From: Oceanospirillum beijerinckii DSM 7166
GTDB lineage: Bacteria > Pseudomonadota > Gammaproteobacteria > Pseudomonadales > Halomonadaceae
Assembly (NCBI RefSeq): GCF_000422425.1
Contig: NZ_AULT01000029.1
Coordinates: forward strand, 1-64,000
Length of the DNA stretch: 64,000 nucleotides
Reading direction: 5' to 3'
The translations under genes were made by a program, and so were the position numbers. The notes beneath the pieces are model-generated. The model did no database searches, was not told the origin of the DNA, and saw only the letters and a program-made list of their open reading frames with translations. The stretch's first letter is position 1; every line of letters begins with the position of its first letter. Positions 37,132 to 53,130 of the stretch are shown in pieces.

Positions 37132-38122
37132 AGGGTAAACGCATCTAAATTTTAGGTCGTCTTAAATAGGATGCTTTCCAGATATCTATCATCTACTCCC
37201 GCTAATTTAAGCTTTCTTGCTATACCACCCTTAATCGTTTCATCCTGTTTGATTAAGTGAAGTGCTATATGCCTCAGTATTGCCAGATTTTCTGCTGAGT
37301 AGCCCGAGTGGATCAGGCAATCATCCTCCCTAAACCCCACATCAAGGCTCCAGTGCAAACCGTTCTCTATACCCCAATGCCTTCGTATAATACCACTCAG
37401 TTGCTCTGCAACTGGAGGTAAACTACTGATAAAGTGTCGAACTTCTCCATACTTCTCCCCATCAACCAAATGATTGCTATAGACCGCTACCGCACTTTGA
37501 ATACCAGGCCAGCGTGAACTCGCATCAATAGAAATAACGGTGTCTTTGATAACCAGTTGCTCCAGTAATTTAGGGATAGCCGTTATTTCATTCGATTTCT
37601 CCTCAGTCTTTTGTTGTCCAATGACCAGATTATGTTCACCAATCCAGGCACTCACCATGTGTATCGCTTGCTTCCCTTTGGCTTTTGACCTTGAGCCTCG
37701 TAATGTTTTGCCATCAATGGCAATTTGATGACCTTCCAGCGAAATGCCAAGACTGGCGACCCAATCAGCAAAACATTGGCGAAAAGCCTCTGGATCAACA
37801 TGCATGAAAATACGTCAAATAGTGTCGTGATAAGGAGGTGCCATTAGGTAGGTCCAGGAAACGTCGAAGCCAGGACTCTTTACTTTTGGCAAAGAGCTCA
37901 ATTTCTTCCCTGCCATCAAACCCACAAATCGTGGCATACAGGCCGATAAAAACGGCATCAATAAGTTTGTGGCGGCGGGTTCTTTCTACCCGAAATTCAG
38001 GGAGTTTGTCGAAGCAAGCTGCAATTGTATTTTCTTCAAGCATAATGGAACTCAGGGAAGGTTGGTCAGACCAAAGAGTAATCGGTTACGGTCAGGATGA
38101 AAAATTTAGATGCGTTTACCCT
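37132..38122 (-). mobile_element. ISAs1-family insertion sequence, decayed
   Basis: The ends are perfect 22-bp inverted repeats, AGGGTAAACGCATCTAAATT plus TT at 37132-37153 and its exact complement at 38101-38122. The 991-bp length is short of the usual 1.2-1.3 kb of the family. The transposase inside is broken (see the pseudogene entry). No matching target-site duplication was found at the flanks. It lies beside a shortened DUF3360 gene, suggesting that insertion and deletion events reshaped this locus. Confidence 0.88.
37152..38043 (-). pseudogene. ISAs1-family transposase, frameshifted and internally deleted
   Basis: The N-terminal part (82 codons, 38043 to 37795) has LIDAVFIGLYATICGFDGRE and EEIELFAKSKESWLRRFLDL, typical of ISAs1 transposases. 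Near 37845 the frame shifts; the continuing frame reads PYHDTI, a TGA stop, then RIFMHVDPEAF, so a nonsense codon adds to the frameshift. The C-terminal part carries IAIDGKTLRGS (first catalytic Asp) and GIENGLHWSLDVGF (last catalytic Glu region). Between VISIDAS and SRWPGIQSAV about 70-80 residues expected in the family are missing, including the middle of the fold. The gene cannot make an active enzyme. Confidence 0.88.
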
Positions 38123-38153: not shown

Positions 38154-38957
38154 CTAGCACTCTATGTTTTCATGATGACTGACTACTAGGTTATCCAGCA
38201 GCATAGTAAAGGACCAACCAAATACCGGATTCACAAATGCAGAAGCAAACATCACAATACCGGCGGACTGAGACGTTTTGGAATCACGGGTCATCTGCAT
38301 ACCGGCCTCCAGCAACGGAAGAAATACACCCACTAACAACGCAACACGCAGCACCGGCGGCCATACAGCCAGATCCATACCATTAGCCCAGTCAAACAGT
38401 GCCTTGACCTGGCTGATCATGCCGACAGCCCCGAGATAGATCAGCAGACCTCCCCGCCCCCCTTCGCCTGTAAGCACCATCAACTTACTGCCGCCTTTGG
38501 TAATACTGAGGAACAGACCAAACAGCCCCACCATAATCCCGAGCGCCATCGGATGACCACCTGAAGCCACAATTAGGGGAATCATGGGGATCATGGGCCC
38601 GTGTGTACCAGCCAGGTTGGCATTCGGATTAAAAATGCCAGAGAACAAAATCACAAACAGTAATGCCGCGATCAGCATCTCAAAACGTACATTTTCGATT
38701 ACAAACTCACTGGACAAACCCAGAGGCGAGGCAAAAGCCGCCACAACAGCTGCAACCATAACAATCTTACCAATCGTTGCGGCCAGCGCAGGCACAAAAT
38801 CCTCCATCTCGAAGTGATAATCACGAAACGGCAGGTTAACCCCCCAGCGCTTGGGGTTCATGATGGTCAGCTCGTGCTCCAGATACTCTGCACGCGAGTT
38901 AAAACTCTTACTCGGCTTACGCTGAGAGCGATAGCAGCCATTATTTTGTTGCGTCAT
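38154..38957 (-). pseudogene. Shortened DUF3360 family membrane protein gene
   Basis: The 267-codon frame starts like DUF3360 proteins, which are permease-like and about 490-500 residues long: EYLEHELTIMNPKRWGVNLP and FRDYHFEMEDFVPALAATIG. It continues with NANLAGTHGPMIPMIP and a late-family segment PLLEAGMQMTRDSKTSQSAG. About 200 residues seem to be missing between LFDWANG and MDLAVWPPVL, and the C-terminus ends early 31 bases from the ISAs1 end. The frame itself is open, so a short product could still be made. Calling it a pseudogene rests on remembered family length. A Crp/Fnr-type regulator is divergent. Confidence 0.7.
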
Positions 38958-42676: not shown

Positions 42677-42739
42677 CACTCACACAAAAGTTTCTCTTTA
42701 GCAGATGGCCGAAAATACCGAAATACTTTTGTGTAAGTG
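42677..42739. repeat. Hairpin repeat element, short copy (63 bp)
   Basis: It begins CACTCACACAAAAGTTTCTC and ends with ATACTTTTGTGTAAGTG. Its 15-bp ends are inverted repeats. It is homologous to the 84-bp copies at 45471-45554 and 45775-45858 but lacks about 20 internal bases. Confidence 0.85.
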
Positions 42740-45403: not shown

Positions 45404-45470
45404 ACGTCCTATTTCAGGCTTTACATCTGTTTATGTACCTTGTCAGGAAGCAAATCAGATAACTGTCTAG

Positions 45471-45554
45471 CACCCACACAAAAGTTTCTCTTTGATAGAC
45501 GGCTTCACTCTTCAGCCGCTGGCCGAAGAATATCGAAACACTTTTGTGTCAGTG
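45471..45554. repeat. Hairpin repeat element, full copy (84 bp)
   Basis: It begins CACCCACACAAAAGTTTCTC, has an inner palindrome around CTTCAGCCGCTGGCCGAAG and ends CACTTTTGTGTCAGTG. The whole element can fold into one long hairpin. A 22-bp partial repeat of its right end follows at 45573-45594. Confidence 0.88.
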
Positions 45555-45774: not shown

Positions 45775-45858
45775 CACTTACACAAAAGTATTTCGACATT
45801 CTTCGGCTATCGGCTGAAGAATGAAGCATTTTGCTATAAAGAAACTTTTGTGTGAGTG
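45775..45858. repeat. Hairpin repeat element, inverted full copy (84 bp)
   Basis: This copy is the reverse complement orientation of that at 45471-45554, with the same length and the same ends (CACTTACACAAAAGT and ACTTTTGTGTGAGTG). Its inner stem is TTCTTCGGC/GCTGAAGAA. It lies 35 bases upstream of the DyP-glycyl radical fusion start and would be in its leader. Confidence 0.88.
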
Positions 45859-45892
45859 CTTATTTACTTATAAACCGTGAAGGGTGTCATCG

Positions 45893-48800
45893 ATGAACGT
45901 TCATCAGGAAACCAAACTGAGCCGACAGCAGCTGAATGCCAACTTTGCCCAACAGGGCATCGCCTTTTTCCCTGCCTTTGGTCACTTTACGACCATTTAT
46001 CTGAAAGATGATCAAAAGAACATTAAGCAGCAATGGCTGAAAGTGGTTAAGGAGATCGATACCCTGTGCGCACAACAGAAAGAAAAAACCGTGTGTGTAT
46101 TTGGTGTCGATTATGAGCTTTGGCAACAGTGGTGTGATCAGGACAAAATGCCAGCACCACAAGGCACTACCGATTTTGTCCGTCTGGATGACAAGCCTTT
46201 TGCCAATACCCGCGGTGACCTCTGGTTCCATATCAAGGGAACCAGCGCTGAGAGCTGTGCACTGATTTATCACACTATTCTCAAAAAACTGAAATCCGTT
46301 ACCCGCACCCATACCCACACGCCTGCTCATAAACAACAGGGTGGTAAGGTCTTTGGTGGCCGCTTTATTGATGCCATGATCAATCCTGTGGATCAGGTCA
46401 ACCTGTCCGAACGGGTGATCGTTGGTGAGGAGGATCTGTTCTATCGCGGCTCCGCCTATGTACTGCAGCAGAAATTTGTCCATAACTGGGCGGCGCTGGA
46501 CAATATGAGCATGGTCGAGAAGGAGGATATGATAGGCCGCAACCATAACCAGGCCATCATCCCGATGCACGATGAGCGCAGCCATATCAAGTGTGTGCGC
46601 CAGCTGAACGGTGAACGGGTGACACAACGTATTCTGCGTCAGGCCCTGCCTTTTGGTCATTCCGATAGCGGTGCAGGTAAAGAAGAAGGCGTCTACTTTG
46701 TCGCTTACGGTAACGACGGCAATGTGTTTGAGCAGCTGATCAAAAATATCGTCGGCTCGGACAAAGGCTTTGTTAAAGACAAGATGCTGAGCAACAGCCA
46801 AGCCATTACCGGTAACTTCTGGTTTGTACCGGCAGCAGAGCTGATTGGCCTGTCTGGTCCTGAAGCCGATATCCCTGTGCCACTGAATGACTATTACAAT
46901 GTGCGCAGCGACAACGGTCTGATGTTCTACAACAACCGGGACTTCCTCAATAAAGCGCAATCGGCCAATGCTAACGACATCCCGATCAGCGATCGTATTA
47001 TGCTGCTGTTAGGTCAAACCTTCAGCGAATGGAACGATACCTGGGAGAAGAAAAAGGTGATGCCTCCTTTGGGCCACCTGAAGGATCATGTCAAAGCTGA
47101 GCGCTGGCAGGGCTACAAAAAGGTCGCCAAGAGTAAATCCGCCGCCTTGCGTAAAGGTTTAGCGATCAAGATCAGCCTGTCCGATACCTTGCTACGACCT
47201 GAATATCGTGAAAAAGCGGGCCTGTACAATATCAAACCCAACGAGATCATTATCGGTAATATGCCACCGCTGACGTTGGGTACGGGTACTCAGGTGATGG
47301 AATATCTGACCGCCGATGAGAAGATTGAACACTTTTTTGGCAATCTGAACGAGTACTCCGCCACCGGCCATAATATTCCGAATTACCACAAGGTTATCCG
47401 CCTGGGTATCGGCGGTATGATCGAGGAAGCTCAGCTCAACCTTGATGCTTCCAAAGGCGAGAAAAAAGCCTTCTATCAATCCGTACTCTGGGCACTGGAA
47501 GGTCTACAGGCGTTTATCCTGGCCCATGCCAAACTGGCCGAAGAAAAAGTACAGGCATGCACGGATACCGATCTTCATAATAAAGAGCACTATGCGGCAA
47601 TTGCGGCTCGTATGGAGAAGCTGGCTTACGAGGCACCACAAGGCCTGTTGGAAAGCCTGCAGCTGATCTTTATCGTCAACTGTGCCTTGCACCAATCCGG
47701 CGAACCTATGTCCATCGGTCGTCTGGATCAATACCTGATCGAACCTTACGAGCAGGATATTGCCGCGGGCCGCCTGACTCAGCCTCAAGCTCAGGAGATT
47801 ATCGACGCCTTCTGGTTGAAGATGGATGAAACCGTACTCTACAACCGCCAGCATATGGAAGACTACCTGAACTATGGTACCGGTGCGGTGTTCTATTCTG
47901 CCGGTAACTTCCCTCAGGGTTCCGCGCTAAACCAGTGGGTGCAGCAGGTCACTATTGGCGGTTATCTGCCGACCAATAGCAAAAAACCAAAAGACGGCTG
48001 TAATGATATTACACTGATGTGTCTGCGTTCCGCCCGTCGTCTGCCATTGAATGCCCCTTGTCTATCTCTGCGTGTCCACCAGGCGATGAAGACACCGCTG
48101 CATGAAGAGATTCTGCAGGAAGCCGCCATGTCCATTATGTCTGGCGGTGCCGATCCTATCCTGATGAATGACGACAAACTGGTTAAAGGCCTGATGGCCA
48201 GTGGCCCGCTGCAACTGGCCGACGCCCGTGATTATGTCTGTGACGGCTGTTACGAGCCGATTATTGGCGGTAAGAGTGAATGGGCGTTCAGCTATGTACC
48301 GATCCTGCCGGTCGTGGGCATGGCGATGAACCAAGGCGCTACCATCGCGGGTGCCGGTTGGCAGCATCTGCGCGGTATCAAAACCGGCTGGAACTCCCCA
48401 GCACCGGAGCAGATCACAAGCTTTGACCACTTCATGGAGATTTTCTTTACCCAATATAAATGGCAGATCAGCAAGTTCTATAACACCCTGATGAACAGCT
48501 ATGGTGCCCTGTGGGATGTGCGCCCAAGCCCACTGTTCTCTGCCATGACCGACGGTTGCATGGAAAGCGGTAAGGATATGACCAACGGCGGTGCCGAATA
48601 TCATATTGTCGCACCGATGATGTGCGGTATTACCGATACCATCAACGCCCTGTATGCCATTAAGAAGATGGTATTTGACCAGGAGACTGCCGTTACTACC
48701 CTGCCGGAACTGCTGCAAGCCCTGTGGAATAACTGGGGTGAAGATATGCAGGAGCCTTTCCACAATGTGATGGCCGGAAATGGTCGTACGGAAGAGGCTG

Positions 48801-49519
48801 CTCTGCGCTATAAGCAGCTGCGCCAAGCAGCGTTAGCCCTGCCTAAGTTTGGTGAAGGTAACTCCGAAGATGTGAAGGCATTGGCTCAGCAGGTCGTACA
48901 GGGTTGTGTCGATATTATCCATGATGGCATTAATAAACCGGTTAAATCGGTGAAAAAAGCCTACAAGCAACTGCAGAAGCAATATGACCTGCCAGAGCGT
49001 AAGTTTGAGTTTGTGGTGACTCCGGGTGTCGGTACCTTTGAAGATAACCTGGGTCTGGGCTCCGGTATGGGGGCATCGCCGGATGGACGCCTGGCCGGTG
49101 ACCCGATTGCCGATGATTTCTGTGCCGCACCAAGTCCTGCAGATCAGCCTCCAAAAACTGAAGCCTACGATATCTACCAGTGCCTACAGGACTGGAATAT
49201 CGAAGCAATCAATGTCGGCCTGTCTAACGCCGCCCCGATTGATCTGAATATCAAAGAGGACTTCCCGGTGGATGAGCTGACCGAAGTGATTCGTCAGTTT
49301 GCCGACAGCAAGCTGGGCTCTAACCTGCTGACCTTTACTACTGCGGATCCTGAAACCTACAAACAGGCGGAAACCTTCCCTGAGAAATACGACCTGGTTC
49401 GCGTACGCCAGGGTGGCTGGAGTGAGTTCTATATCGCCATGTTCCCAGAGCATCAAAAGTATATCTCACGCCGTCGGTTTTATGAGGTGAAGTCACCGGG
49501 CAAAACCGCTAGATCCTGA
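45893..49519 (+). CDS. Fusion of a DyP-type heme peroxidase and a glycyl radical enzyme
   Basis: A 1208-residue protein; ATG 45893 has AAGGG 9 bases upstream, and an in-frame GTG at 45884 is less likely. Residues about 25-320 follow the YfeX/EfeB-like DyP pattern. FGGRFIDAMINP replaces the usual GxxDG (Asp160 kept, last Gly now Ala), the probable heme-ligand His231 is in ERSHIKCV, and Arg249 is in RILRQALPFG. Residues about 365-1195 form a full PFL-type glycyl radical domain. The thiyl Cys786 and base Glu788 are in CDGCYEPIIGG. NGGAEYHIVAPMMCGITD and GMGASPDGRLAG are family hallmarks, and the radical Gly1175 is in LVRVRQGGWSEFY. The GCxE motif fits dehydratase/lyase types (like GDH, HPAD or CutC) rather than true pyruvate formate-lyase. 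No radical-SAM activase lies nearby. Substrate unknown. Confidence 0.9.
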   Translation: MNVHQETKLSRQQLNANFAQQGIAFFPAFGHFTTIYLKDDQKNIKQQWLKVVKEIDTLCAQQKEKTVCVFGVDYELWQQWCDQDKMPAPQGTTDFVRLDDKPFANTRGDLWFHIKGTSAESCALIYHTILKKLKSVTRTHTHTPAHKQQGGKVFGGRFIDAMINPVDQVNLSERVIVGEEDLFYRGSAYVLQQKFVHNWAALDNMSMVEKEDMIGRNHNQAIIPMHDERSHIKCVRQLNGERVTQRILRQALPFGHSDSGAGKEEGVYFVAYGNDGNVFEQLIKNIVGSDKGFVKDKMLSNSQAITGNFWFVPAAELIGLSGPEADIPVPLNDYYNVRSDNGLMFYNNRDFLNKAQSANANDIPISDRIMLLLGQTFSEWNDTWEKKKVMPPLGHLKDHVKAERWQGYKKVAKSKSAALRKGLAIKISLSDTLLRPEYREKAGLYNIKPNEIIIGNMPPLTLGTGTQVMEYLTADEKIEHFFGNLNEYSATGHNIPNYHKVIRLGIGGMIEEAQLNLDASKGEKKAFYQSVLWALEGLQAFILAHAKLAEEKVQACTDTDLHNKEHYAAIAARMEKLAYEAPQGLLESLQLIFIVNCALHQSGEPMSIGRLDQYLIEPYEQDIAAGRLTQPQAQEIIDAFWLKMDETVLYNRQHMEDYLNYGTGAVFYSAGNFPQGSALNQWVQQVTIGGYLPTNSKKPKDGCNDITLMCLRSARRLPLNAPCLSLRVHQAMKTPLHEEILQEAAMSIMSGGADPILMNDDKLVKGLMASGPLQLADARDYVCDGCYEPIIGGKSEWAFSYVPILPVVGMAMNQGATIAGAGWQHLRGIKTGWNSPAPEQITSFDHFMEIFFTQYKWQISKFYNTLMNSYGALWDVRPSPLFSAMTDGCMESGKDMTNGGAEYHIVAPMMCGITDTINALYAIKKMVFDQETAVTTLPELLQALWNNWGEDMQEPFHNVMAGNGRTEEAALRYKQLRQAALALPKFGEGNSEDVKALAQQVVQGCVDIIHDGINKPVKSVKKAYKQLQKQYDLPERKFEFVVTPGVGTFEDNLGLGSGMGASPDGRLAGDPIADDFCAAPSPADQPPKTEAYDIYQCLQDWNIEAINVGLSNAAPIDLNIKEDFPVDELTEVIRQFADSKLGSNLLTFTTADPETYKQAETFPEKYDLVRVRQGGWSEFYIAMFPEHQKYISRRRFYEVKSPGKTARS

Positions 49520-49599: not shown

Positions 49600-50751
49600 A
49601 TGGAAAAGATTATGATGAAACTTAAACTGAACGCCATGTTTCTGCTGTTAGGTGGTTTACTGTTTCAAGCCCATGCCTACGGCGCTGCAGAGAAGAAACA
49701 AGAATCTCTGGTACAAATGATTACTGTAAACAGCTTTAGCCAACTACAACAAGCAGTACTGGAACTGAAAGAAGAGAGCAAACAGAAGAATCTGTCTAAT
49801 ACCCTGATTGTAATGGATGATGACGACACACTAACCATGATGGAGTGTGAGGATCGCAGCAAGCCAATAAGCTGTCAGTTCCTCGGTGGTCCGGCCTGGT
49901 TCAGCTGGCAGGAAAATCTGTTAAAGCAGTATCAAAGCAATCATCCAGTCCCTCAAGATCTAAACCTGCTGCAACAGCTGGAAGCCAAAAATGGCAAGCT
50001 GACCAAGCAGGAAAAAGAGCTGAAACACGAGCTGGAGAAACTGGCAAAGGAAAGTGCTAATACGGTTAAACCGCCGTTGGTAGCCAACAATATGGGCGAC
50101 TTGTTGGATATCGCCGCCCTGCTGCTGGCGATCAACAATATGCCCTATACCGAAGAGAAGGAAGTGCCTTCCGTACTGAAAACACTGACCAAAGATCAGG
50201 CCAAACTGCTGGTACTGACTGCCCGAGGCACCAGCAACCTGTCAGCCACTGAAAGCCAGTTTGCTGCCCTGACAGCTACAAAAGCGGATCAAAAGAAAGG
50301 AATCACAGCCGTGAGTTTTCAGGAGCTGATTCATAACAATGCACTGAATGGGCAAAAGAGTGGCATCGCCAGTATCGCCGGCCCATTTGCTCCCTGTACC
50401 CAGTCAACAAACGCCAGAAGCGTGAGCTATCAGGAAGGTGTGATGTATGTCGCCGGTCAGAATAAAGGTGAGATGCTGAAATGCCTGCTAAGCAAAACGG
50501 ACTCGGGGCAGATCCAAAATATCTTCTTTATCGATGATACCCTGCAAAACGTAGTTGATGTGTTCTCTGCCTTTGAAGGTCAGGATCAGTACAAGGTGAC
50601 CGCCATGCACTACACCTACCTGAAAAAGCATAAAGACGCCTTTATGAATGAAAAAGCGCTGCAGGATAAAGCCAATCAGCGCTGGGAGGATGTTAAAGCA
50701 AGCCTGGCGAGTCATCTGAAAAATCCAACAGCAATTTCTAAAGTTCAGTAA
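49600..50751 (+). CDS. Exported DUF2608 (HAD-like) protein
   Basis: A 383-residue protein with a signal peptide (MMKLKLNAMFLLLGGLLFQA, cleavage near AYGAA). The start could be ATG 49600, 49612 or 49615. The soluble part resembles DUF2608, a HAD-fold family. A first strand TLIVMDDDDTLTMM stands where HAD proteins have DxDxT, KLLVLTARG is the second motif, and IFFIDDTLQNVVDV the final Asp pair. Phosphatase activity is plausible, but the family function is unknown. It begins 80 bases after the fusion gene in the same direction, with a short hairpin (49567-49587) between, and may be cotranscribed. Confidence 0.75.
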   Translation: MEKIMMKLKLNAMFLLLGGLLFQAHAYGAAEKKQESLVQMITVNSFSQLQQAVLELKEESKQKNLSNTLIVMDDDDTLTMMECEDRSKPISCQFLGGPAWFSWQENLLKQYQSNHPVPQDLNLLQQLEAKNGKLTKQEKELKHELEKLAKESANTVKPPLVANNMGDLLDIAALLLAINNMPYTEEKEVPSVLKTLTKDQAKLLVLTARGTSNLSATESQFAALTATKADQKKGITAVSFQELIHNNALNGQKSGIASIAGPFAPCTQSTNARSVSYQEGVMYVAGQNKGEMLKCLLSKTDSGQIQNIFFIDDTLQNVVDVFSAFEGQDQYKVTAMHYTYLKKHKDAFMNEKALQDKANQRWEDVKASLASHLKNPTAISKVQ

Positions 50752-51103: not shown

Positions 51104-51781
51104 ATGAAACTACTACTTGTTGAAGATCATCAGGATATCGCCGGTATCATCTTTGATTTTTTTGAGCTTAAGGGCTACGTGCTGGACTACGCCTGCAATG
51201 GCCAACAGGGTTTTGATCTGGCCAGAGACAATCACTACGATCTGATTATTCTCGATGTGATGCTGCCACGTATGGATGGCTATACCGTGTGCAAGAAGCT
51301 GAGAGAGCAAGGAATCGATACACCGATTCTAATGTTAACCGCGCGGGATACCCGGGAAGATACCCTGGCCGGCTTTGAGCAAGGCGCTGATGATTATCTG
51401 GTCAAACCCTTTGACCTGGAAATTCTGGAAGCCCGCATCAAAGCCTTGACACGACGCAGGCTCGGCCAAACTGCCACTAAAGCCATTCGCTTTGAACAAC
51501 TAACGCTGGACATCAACACCCATTCCCTGAACCGGGGCGATTGCCGTCTCTCTCTCAATCCCACCCAGTTTACTATCCTGAAACTGCTGATCATGCGCGC
51601 ACCGGAAGTGGTGAGCAAAGAAGAGATTGTCCACACGCTATGGGGCGAGGATGAACCGGAAGGTAACGTGCTCAGAAGCCATATCTATCAACTGCGCAAC
51701 CAGATTGATAAACCCTTTAGCCATCACTACCTGAAAACAGTTCCCAAGGTAGGCTATCAATTGATCGGAGAAGACAGCTAG
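51104..51781 (+). CDS. OmpR-family response regulator
   Basis: A 225-residue DNA-binding regulator. The receiver shows the acidic pocket VEDH, phospho-acceptor Asp51 (LIILDVMLPRMDGY), the conserved Thr (MLTARD) and Lys (YLVKPFD). The winged-helix domain (about 128-222; LNPTQFTILKLLIMRAPEVV, then HIYQLRNQID) is complete. Its stop overlaps the kinase start by one base (TAGTG), so it is coupled to that kinase. Confidence 0.95.
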   Translation: MKLLLVEDHQDIAGIIFDFFELKGYVLDYACNGQQGFDLARDNHYDLIILDVMLPRMDGYTVCKKLREQGIDTPILMLTARDTREDTLAGFEQGADDYLVKPFDLEILEARIKALTRRRLGQTATKAIRFEQLTLDINTHSLNRGDCRLSLNPTQFTILKLLIMRAPEVVSKEEIVHTLWGEDEPEGNVLRSHIYQLRNQIDKPFSHHYLKTVPKVGYQLIGEDS

Positions 51782-53130
51782 TGCCCCCATCACAGCCTGA
51801 TCATGTCATCCTGAAGGTATTCCGTAGCGTAAAAAGCGCTAAACAACTCACCTTCACCTATTTCTCTATTGTGGCCTTCGCCATTATTACCTTTCACTTT
51901 GCACTCTTTGATATCACTCTGGATAAACTGGAGCGACTGACTACCCAAAATCGACTGCTGCATGATAAGCAGCAGGCCGAGGAGCTGTTGCGGAGCCACT
52001 TTCAAACACAGTTTGAAATCCCACCATTCAGCAAGGCTTATCTCAACCGTCAGGATATTCCTGACAATCTCACTCTACCGAAAAAAATGAAACTCGACCA
52101 AGCCTATGAGATTGAACGAGGTGACGGCAGTCTGGAAGATGAATATTACCTGATGTACTCCAAGATACAGGTCAATGGGCAAGAGCATTCACTTTACCTG
52201 CTGCACTTTGATGCTATATACGAACAAAGTGAAGCGGAGGCGTTTCAGGCCCAGAGTAAGCAGCTATTACTGTCGTTTTCTTTGCTCTGCATCAGTCTGT
52301 GGGTAGTGTTAAGTATCTCCAAACACCTGACTTCACCGCTGGCGCAGCTGACGAAGACACTGCAACATCGCACGCCTCAGGATCTTTCGCCTATCCCCGT
52401 CCCCGAAGGAGTTTCGACCCGGGAGGTGCTGCAATTGGTGGAACAGCTTAATCAATATCAGAATCAGATCCATGAACTACTGGAACGGGAGCGAGCATTT
52501 AACCGGTATGCCAGCCATGAACTGAGAACCCCTCTGATGGTAATTAAAGGGGCCGTATCCTTACTGGGCCAATCAAACGATGCACAGTTCATCGAAAAAC
52601 AACGCCAGCGCTTGCGACAAGCCAGTACAGAGATGAACGATTTTGTCAGCACCCTGCTATCACTGACCCGCGAGGAAGATATCAGTCGATTGAGCTATCG
52701 TACTCTCACACCGCAAGAAGTCGAAGATTGCGTCGAAAGTCACCAACACCTGTTAACCGGTAAACAGGTGCAATGCCAGATCAAAATGACCGATAGCGTT
52801 CATATCAAAATGCCTGAAACCAGTTTTAAAATTCTGCTCGGCAATCTGATCAAAAACGCATTTGCCTGTACAGAACACGGGCAGGTCTCTGTAAAAGTAG
52901 ATTCTCAGCAGATCCAGGTCATCGACACCGGTATAGGCCTGGGCAGCACCCCTCGCGGGGTCGAAGGGTTTGGTTTAGGCCTGTTGATAGCTCATGATAT
53001 CTGTCGCAAATATGACTGGCAGCTGGAGCTGATCAATAATGATCATGGAGGCTGTACCGCCAATATCACTTTGCAAAAACCCATAAGCATCAACCCTCCC
53101 AGAGTAAAAGTGGGTACTGACGCGACTTAG
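51781..53130 (+). CDS. Membrane sensor histidine kinase paired with the OmpR-type regulator
   Basis: A 449-residue kinase starting with GTG. Two transmembrane segments (about 22-45 and 160-180) surround a periplasmic sensor of about 110 residues. The HisKA box AFNRYASHELRTPLMVIKG carries His246. The ATPase domain has the N box NLIKNAFACTEHG, G1 DTGIGLG and G2 GFGLGLLIAHDIC. A HAMP-like linker lies at about 180-225. The stimulus is unknown. Target genes cannot be inferred beyond the neighbouring MgtE and DUF2608 genes. Confidence 0.92.
   Translation: MPPSQPDHVILKVFRSVKSAKQLTFTYFSIVAFAIITFHFALFDITLDKLERLTTQNRLLHDKQQAEELLRSHFQTQFEIPPFSKAYLNRQDIPDNLTLPKKMKLDQAYEIERGDGSLEDEYYLMYSKIQVNGQEHSLYLLHFDAIYEQSEAEAFQAQSKQLLLSFSLLCISLWVVLSISKHLTSPLAQLTKTLQHRTPQDLSPIPVPEGVSTREVLQLVEQLNQYQNQIHELLERERAFNRYASHELRTPLMVIKGAVSLLGQSNDAQFIEKQRQRLRQASTEMNDFVSTLLSLTREEDISRLSYRTLTPQEVEDCVESHQHLLTGKQVQCQIKMTDSVHIKMPETSFKILLGNLIKNAFACTEHGQVSVKVDSQQIQVIDTGIGLGSTPRGVEGFGLGLLIAHDICRKYDWQLELINNDHGGCTANITLQKPISINPPRVKVGTDAT

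Follow-up and report, generated by a model that had tools for sequence, protein, structure and literature searches.

The stretch analysed here, referred to below as the window, comprises 64,000 nucleotides of contig NZ_AULT01000029.1 from Oceanospirillum beijerinckii DSM 7166 (positions 1 to 64,000, forward strand). On its plus strand, at 45893..49519, lies a single open frame of 1208 codons that runs from an ATG at 45893 to the stop codon at 49517-49519, with an alternative GTG start three codons upstream (45884). Judged from its sequence, the product joins a DyP-type heme peroxidase (DyP) domain in one chain to a domain of the PFL-like glycyl radical enzyme (GRE) kind.

The DyP domain spans approximately residues 27-318 (45971..46846, plus strand) and contains D160, H231 and R249. 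It matched the NCBIfam family TIGR01413 (Dyp-type peroxidase) over residues 27-315, with 120.1 bits against a cut-off of 100.5, and the Pfam family Dyp_perox_C over residues 158-315, with 81 bits against 20. Dyp_perox_N (Pfam), taken alone, stayed slightly below its cut-off over residues 57-134 (18.3 versus 20.4 bits). Solved DyPs align to about residue 324, and among the 60 of 72 PDB matches listed, DyPs were matched by sequence over residues ~60-324 and GREs over ~480-1190. A junction of approximate limits (residues ~319-400, 46847..47092, plus strand), holding W380 and W384 in the alignment, leads into the GRE domain at residues ~401-1196 (47093..49480, plus strand), with H493, C786, E788 and G1175. 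The extent of this domain rests on the PFL-like match at residues 479-1011 (Pfam PF02901, 346 bits, cut-off 24.3) and on profile-profile comparison, its start being placed by eye.

Within the GRE domain, the motif G785-C786-Y787-E788 (GCYE, residues 785-788) includes Cys786 (codon 48248..48250, plus strand), the expected thiyl radical site, which aligns with a Cys in 7/7 canonical GREs. Gly1175 (codon 49415..49417, plus strand), the expected glycyl radical site, aligns with the canonical glycyl loop. The fusion scored 239.8 bits with TIGR01774 (PFL2-3, NCBIfam), below the subfamily cut-off of 678.2, and its GRE half is thus regarded as a divergent branch. A profile search of the window's genome returned no match to the glycine radical domain PF01228. 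When eight fused GRE parts were compared with seven canonical GREs, profile against profile, they aligned through the glycyl loop to the protein end (probability 100, E 7.7e-74).

The key residues D160, H231, R249, C786, E788 and G1175 are invariant in 13/13 fusions, among which 334 of the 1208 positions are invariant; this count leaves out L014, which ends with its contig, and the decayed L009, and L013 was not aligned. The three heme-site residues are kept in all 15 aligned fused DyP rows from the scan and the window, and a more distant fusion in Asticcacaulis carries Glu at the D160 position. Cys786, Glu788, Gly1175 and His493 are identical in all 15 DyP-linked rows compared, which cover three phyla and exclude L009 and L014. 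An AlphaFold model of residues 9-1208, built with 15 sequences, reached a mean pLDDT of 61.3, with much of the C-terminal half of the DyP below 50; it is too poor for distances and supports no claim.

The closest relatives of the DyP half are type-B DyPs such as Rhodococcus DypB and the encapsulin cargo DyPs, whose heme-site Asp, His and Arg are shared with the fusion and whose solved members match it by sequence. In contrast to these, the fusion carries a GRE, clade-specific tryptophans, and Ala or Thr (Gly in Asticcacaulis) at the aligned position of the distal Asn of DypB. Two standalone type-B DyP genes used as tree references (L187, L188) directly precede an encapsulin shell gene. By profile, the best structural relatives of the other half are GREs of the PFL2/glycerol dehydratase type (glycerol and diol dehydratases, CutC, PflD, YbiW), which share the Cys, the Glu of GCxE and the Gly. 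They differ from the fusion in their activase partner, which was not detected for the fusion, in the sequence of the glycyl loop, in the Asp of diol dehydratases, which is Phe799 in the fusion, and in the TIGR01774 score noted above.

A first-pass annotation, made from the DNA letters, had described a DyP and a GRE in one 1208-residue chain. The single open frame and both domain searches bear this out, and its residue numbering was correct. It assigned the DyP to the N-terminal third; the domain is indeed N-terminal and occupies nearer a quarter of the chain. The pairing, which it found chemically surprising, still appears so, with both domains conserved.

Occurrence of the fusion

A scan of a collection of genome contigs with the fusion protein returned 15 loci, 14 of which match near the full query length, L014 being cut by a contig end. 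This number is a lower bound, since a single-protein query detects close relatives only. The carriers belong to the Gammaproteobacteria (Aliikangiella, Pleionea, Kangiellaceae, Litchfieldella, Alteromonadaceae, Albibeggiatoa and one unplaced), the Alphaproteobacteria (Thalassospira and two Xanthobacteraceae) and the Betaproteobacteria (two Sideroxydans, Comamonadaceae and one unplaced), and one further carrier is a planctomycete (Planctomycetota). The recurrence check proposed in the first-pass annotation thereby came out in its favour, with the same domain order in 15 other genomes, and because these were independently assembled, the worry about a chimeric junction is answered. Within the window's family the fusion is present in 2/275 genomes, with a broken fragment in a third, and in an even sample of the class in 2/369, one of them identical to L001. 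The fusion is rare but recurrent, and no assembly accident.

Two pairs of records were each counted once: L082, which equals L001 over 1214 residues, and L017 (G132), which gives the same values as L011 (G285). The more distant fusion is located on an Asticcacaulis plasmid (32% identity, 1326 aa). The L013 fusion has a frameshift between two pieces and keeps the key residues. In a metagenome-assembled genome (MAG) of Candidatus Albibeggiatoa (L009:9959-13503), Cys786 is lost and the GRE frame is left before the glycyl loop, and D160, H231 and R249 remain. A Litchfieldella relative holds a GRE fragment with stops only (L018, G133:C14:121215-121763). Among viral contigs, 25 pattern matches were found and none was confirmed; in five phage records a GRE or DyP was matched in part, each time with less than 80% coverage.

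The first-pass annotation knew of no described example; however, a DyP-PFL fusion of unknown function was reported in Chaetomium in a 2016 fungal genome paper (PMC5041501). According to that paper, the fusion was also detected in other prokaryotic and eukaryotic genomes and the fungal gene derived from proteobacteria (PMC5041501). The fungal protein, as described there, resembles the bacterial one in having the DyP followed by the PFL, a likeness of description and not of compared sequences (PMC5041501). A literature search found nothing on activase binding to the glycyl loop, and the open-licence papers searched yielded no description of a DyP-PFL fusion besides PMC5041501, no printed mention of a missing activase or of an unfused GRE-DyP pair, and no paper on a SAM-independent glycyl radical (SAM, S-adenosylmethionine). 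With the architecture already in print, what looks new is the gene context: the family seems to do without a standard activase and to have a peroxidase instead.

Activase search, glycyl loop and an unfused pair

Canonical GREs require a radical-SAM activating enzyme, and in the controls an activase gene adjoins 7/7 canonical GREs. The neighbour of the standalone GRE of G303 was recognized by TIGR02494 (352 bits, cut-off 174) and served as positive control. For the GREs of Acinetobacter, Rahnella, Klebsiella (CutC/CutD), Vibrio, E. coli (YbiW/YbiY) and Peptoclostridium, hand-picked among listed plasmid matches (two sets, of 39 and 33 records), the neighbouring activase is taken from annotation.

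In all 16 carrier genomes (the window's and those of L001-L015), PF02901 detected exactly one PFL-like gene, which is the fusion; the other two of the 18 genomes in this search were G133, with the fragment, and the control G303. The GRE activase family TIGR02494 was without a match in the window's genome at a threshold of E 1e-5 and exceeded its cut-off in 0/17 genome handles (L001-L015, G133, and G132, a repeat of the L011 genome). Matches below the cut-off were obtained in 13 of these 17. The stronger ones represent, by eye and with confirmation by TIGR04337, the AmmeMemoRadiSam radical-SAM protein (rS), a distant radical-SAM relative of the activases, and the others resemble, by eye, ferredoxin-type or other proteins. 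PF13353 matched in 18/18 genomes searched and also in 14/14 control genomes, and for that reason neither helps nor refutes; in the two Sideroxydans genomes its match (~91 bits, in a frame of ~230 aa) is by eye probably NrdG.

The broader radical-SAM family PF04055 gave 24 matches in the window's genome, 22 of them above cut-off, and none looked by eye like a GRE activase. All 87 PF04055 matches (24 plus 63) of five isolate carriers (the window's, Aliikangiella, Pleionea, Thalassospira and Litchfieldella) were clustered, and only five clusters proved common to all, by eye MoaA, MiaB/RimO, HemN/HemW, LipA and RlmN. Two similar radical-SAM proteins of ~500 aa in the window's genome (L070 and L073, contigs C31 and C34) are without counterpart in the four other isolate carriers.

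The glycyl loop is the part of a GRE that is bound by the activase. It reads R-[QM]-G-G-W in 15/15 DyP-linked rows with an intact end, the loop of L004, which has a long C-terminal tail, being taken from a separate alignment, and R-V-[AS]-G-Y in 7/7 canonical GREs. Several tryptophans are likewise confined to this clade. Trp199 occurs in 15/15 and Trp310 in 14/15 fused DyP domains, against 0/13 reference DyPs for both; Trp380, Trp384, Trp682 and Trp1176 occur in 15/15 DyP-linked GREs and in 0/7 canonical GREs, the positions of Trp380 and Trp384 being gapped in all seven. These tryptophans could be a relay, although their conservation by itself is no proof of one.

An unfused arrangement was found on a Hymenobacter plasmid, where a GRE of the fusion's clade (36.7% identity over 71% of the query) is followed on the same strand by a separate DyP gene. 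Read in pieces, this GRE keeps D-G-C-Y-E and R-M-G-G-W and scores 22.7 bits with PF01228 (cut-off 22.2), and the DyP keeps the heme-site Asp, His and Arg. Within the 18.5 kb of plasmid sequence covered, no gene is annotated as an activase. In the GRE tree, which leaves out L009, L014, L002 and L003, the 13 DyP-linked rows form one clade against the seven canonical GREs (support 100/100). The final DyP tree omits L009, L014, three near-duplicates and the DypB_Rhodoc_enc row, which had been mis-extracted in an earlier tree. In it the 14 fused rows form one clade (100/100), and the Hymenobacter DyP groups with four EfeB-type rows at 100/100 (93/89 in the earlier tree), though its branch is long and the bootstrap is not settled. 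The Hymenobacter DyP is thus apparently of a class other than the fused DyPs, and should this placement hold, two kinds of DyP have become partners of one and the same GRE clade.

Proposed radical initiation and competing explanations

To our knowledge, all PFL-like GREs studied so far depend on a radical-SAM activase for their start and function only when oxygen is low. Since the usual activating helper was not found in the carrier genomes, the peroxidase may be a built-in switch. The most likely reading, held with somewhat less than even confidence, is that of a peroxide-activated GRE suited to life in air, in which the peroxidase has taken over from the radical-SAM activase and uses peroxide to generate the radical. 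H2O2 would react at the DyP heme site (His231, Asp160, Arg249), and the oxidising equivalent would be passed to the GRE half, perhaps via the clade-specific tryptophans. A radical would then be made at Gly1175, or directly at Cys786, and Cys786 would go on to attack the substrate in the manner of other GREs. In this scheme the DyP stands in for the activase. The direction of transfer, the relay and the carrying of any radical by Gly1175 are inferred. Of the roles guessed at in the first-pass annotation, regeneration of the radical site fits best, given no activase above cut-off in 16 carriers, the unfused pair and the changed loop; the role may yet be protection of that site.

In the fungus, the fusion transcript increased 3-fold with H2O2 and 18.5-fold with peroxyacetic acid (PMC5041501), which counts for activation by peroxide. 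More tentative still is the wider proposal that a GRE branch in aerobes exchanged its SAM-dependent activase for a heme peroxidase, with peroxide starting the radical. This may have happened twice, through fusion to a type-B DyP in one case and through pairing with an EfeB-type DyP in the other. If true, a second, peroxide-started way to make a glycyl radical would exist in aerobic bacteria, in parallel to the oxygen-using class of ribonucleotide reductases, and would offer a route to radical enzymes working in air. In class I ribonucleotide reductase, the fold of which is related to that of GREs, an oxygen-chemistry metal centre feeds a thiyl radical via an aromatic relay; it differs from the fusion in having a diiron or Mn subunit instead of heme and no glycyl radical. 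The gene-content evidence makes the role of a fusion in print since 2016 a testable question.

Several observations weigh against activation by the peroxidase. The unfused pair was seen once, in Hymenobacter, with a frameshift in both genes (perhaps sequencing error) and a long branch, and its DyP is without Trp199 and Trp310. TIGR02494 may miss a strongly diverged activase, and assembly gaps may hide one: with 99 contigs and a completeness of 99.05%, the window's genome is a draft, and most other carriers are MAGs, so that the absences are weakened and not absolute. A putative PFL activase is reported for the fusion-bearing fungus (PMC5041501), whereas the bacterial genomes searched gave none above cut-off. 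The AmmeMemoRadiSam rS, finally, was found in 12 of the 17 genomes tested (11/16 carriers and G133), including all four isolate carriers other than the window's. Together, the last two points favour a different explanation, in which a non-standard radical-SAM protein such as AmmeMemoRadiSam activates the GRE half in trans, with the DyP half limited to removing peroxide or otherwise protecting the radical site. The rS is rare in the window's family (8/275 genomes) and yet present in both G132, with the fusion, and G133, with the fragment. These two are not independent, being of one genus, and G133 retains its rS gene despite the broken fusion. No rS match was obtained in the window's genome nor in G275, G283, G284, G288 and G468 (the last being the genome of L001 or a near copy), and the background in the class is high (183/369 genomes). 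Its absence from the window's genome and this background weaken AmmeMemoRadiSam as a required activase; unless the draft misses it, the rS is not the general one. Activation in trans is considered less likely than activation by the peroxidase, but counts as one of two main rivals, the other being a GRE half without radical chemistry.

A GRE half that has lost radical chemistry, and provides an ordinary peroxidase with a scaffold or a substrate-binding partner, would agree with carriers that have no activase above cut-off and with a PF01228 signal below threshold in the window's genome. It would also suit L009, in which the heme-site residues outlast Cys786 and an in-frame glycyl loop; L009, however, has further losses and looks decayed. 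Conservation of Cys786, Glu788, Gly1175 and His493 in 15/15 DyP-linked rows of three phyla speaks against this explanation, which appears improbable. The suggestion of the first-pass annotation that both parts act on one substrate, here in sequence and each activated in its own way, gained no specific support. Fused and operon forms both occur, as is common for consecutive enzymes, but the missing activase and the changed glycyl loop are left unexplained, and a DyP of seemingly another class in Hymenobacter is not predicted by a shared substrate; among the explanations weighed, this one is given the least credence.

Neighbouring genes and substrate

A DUF2608 gene (49600..50751, plus strand) begins 80 bases downstream of the fusion gene. 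Homologues lie 3' of the fusion in L001-L005, which brings the count to 6/16 loci by clustering, with Pfam applied to two of them; an alignment of DUF2608 found no match in the PDB. PF04185 phosphoesterase genes are situated near the fusion in L001, L002, L004 and L012 (Pfam on the L002 gene and on a second gene of L012). A 427-aa protein with, by eye, a histidine-phosphatase-like motif occurs near the fusion in L006, L007, L008 and L013. Its reading as a histidine phosphatase was set aside, as it depends on the motif: neither Pfam nor NCBIfam had a hit for the copy in L006, and one PDB row at E 0.081 was taken as chance. Counting DUF2608 as phosphatase-like by eye, such a neighbour is present in 11/16 loci, and by eye none was seen within the available flanks in L009, L010, L011, L014 and L015. 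These phosphatase-like neighbours are the only hint at the substrate. Diol dehydratases have a catalytic Asp that aligns with Phe799 of the fusion, which makes a simple diol dehydratase unlikely, and a lyase-type reaction is plausible in view of the retained GCxE motif.

Downstream of the DUF2608 gene, response regulator and sensor kinase genes are located at 51104-53130, and similar proteins are encoded downstream of the Thalassospira fusion (L005:14678-16734). Just upstream of the fusion gene, 86-nt inverted repeats (45469-45554 and 45775-45860) that are 83% complementary lie 220 nt apart, and their core motif has one more copy in the window, at 42718-42734. The pair looks like a small mobile or repetitive element. 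A search for an OxyR-like pattern with up to three mismatches gave 42 matches against ~50 expected. Further upstream, a transposase-like frame (37152-37805, minus strand) stands beside a permease-like frame (38154-38957, minus strand) that by eye is seemingly short for its kind.

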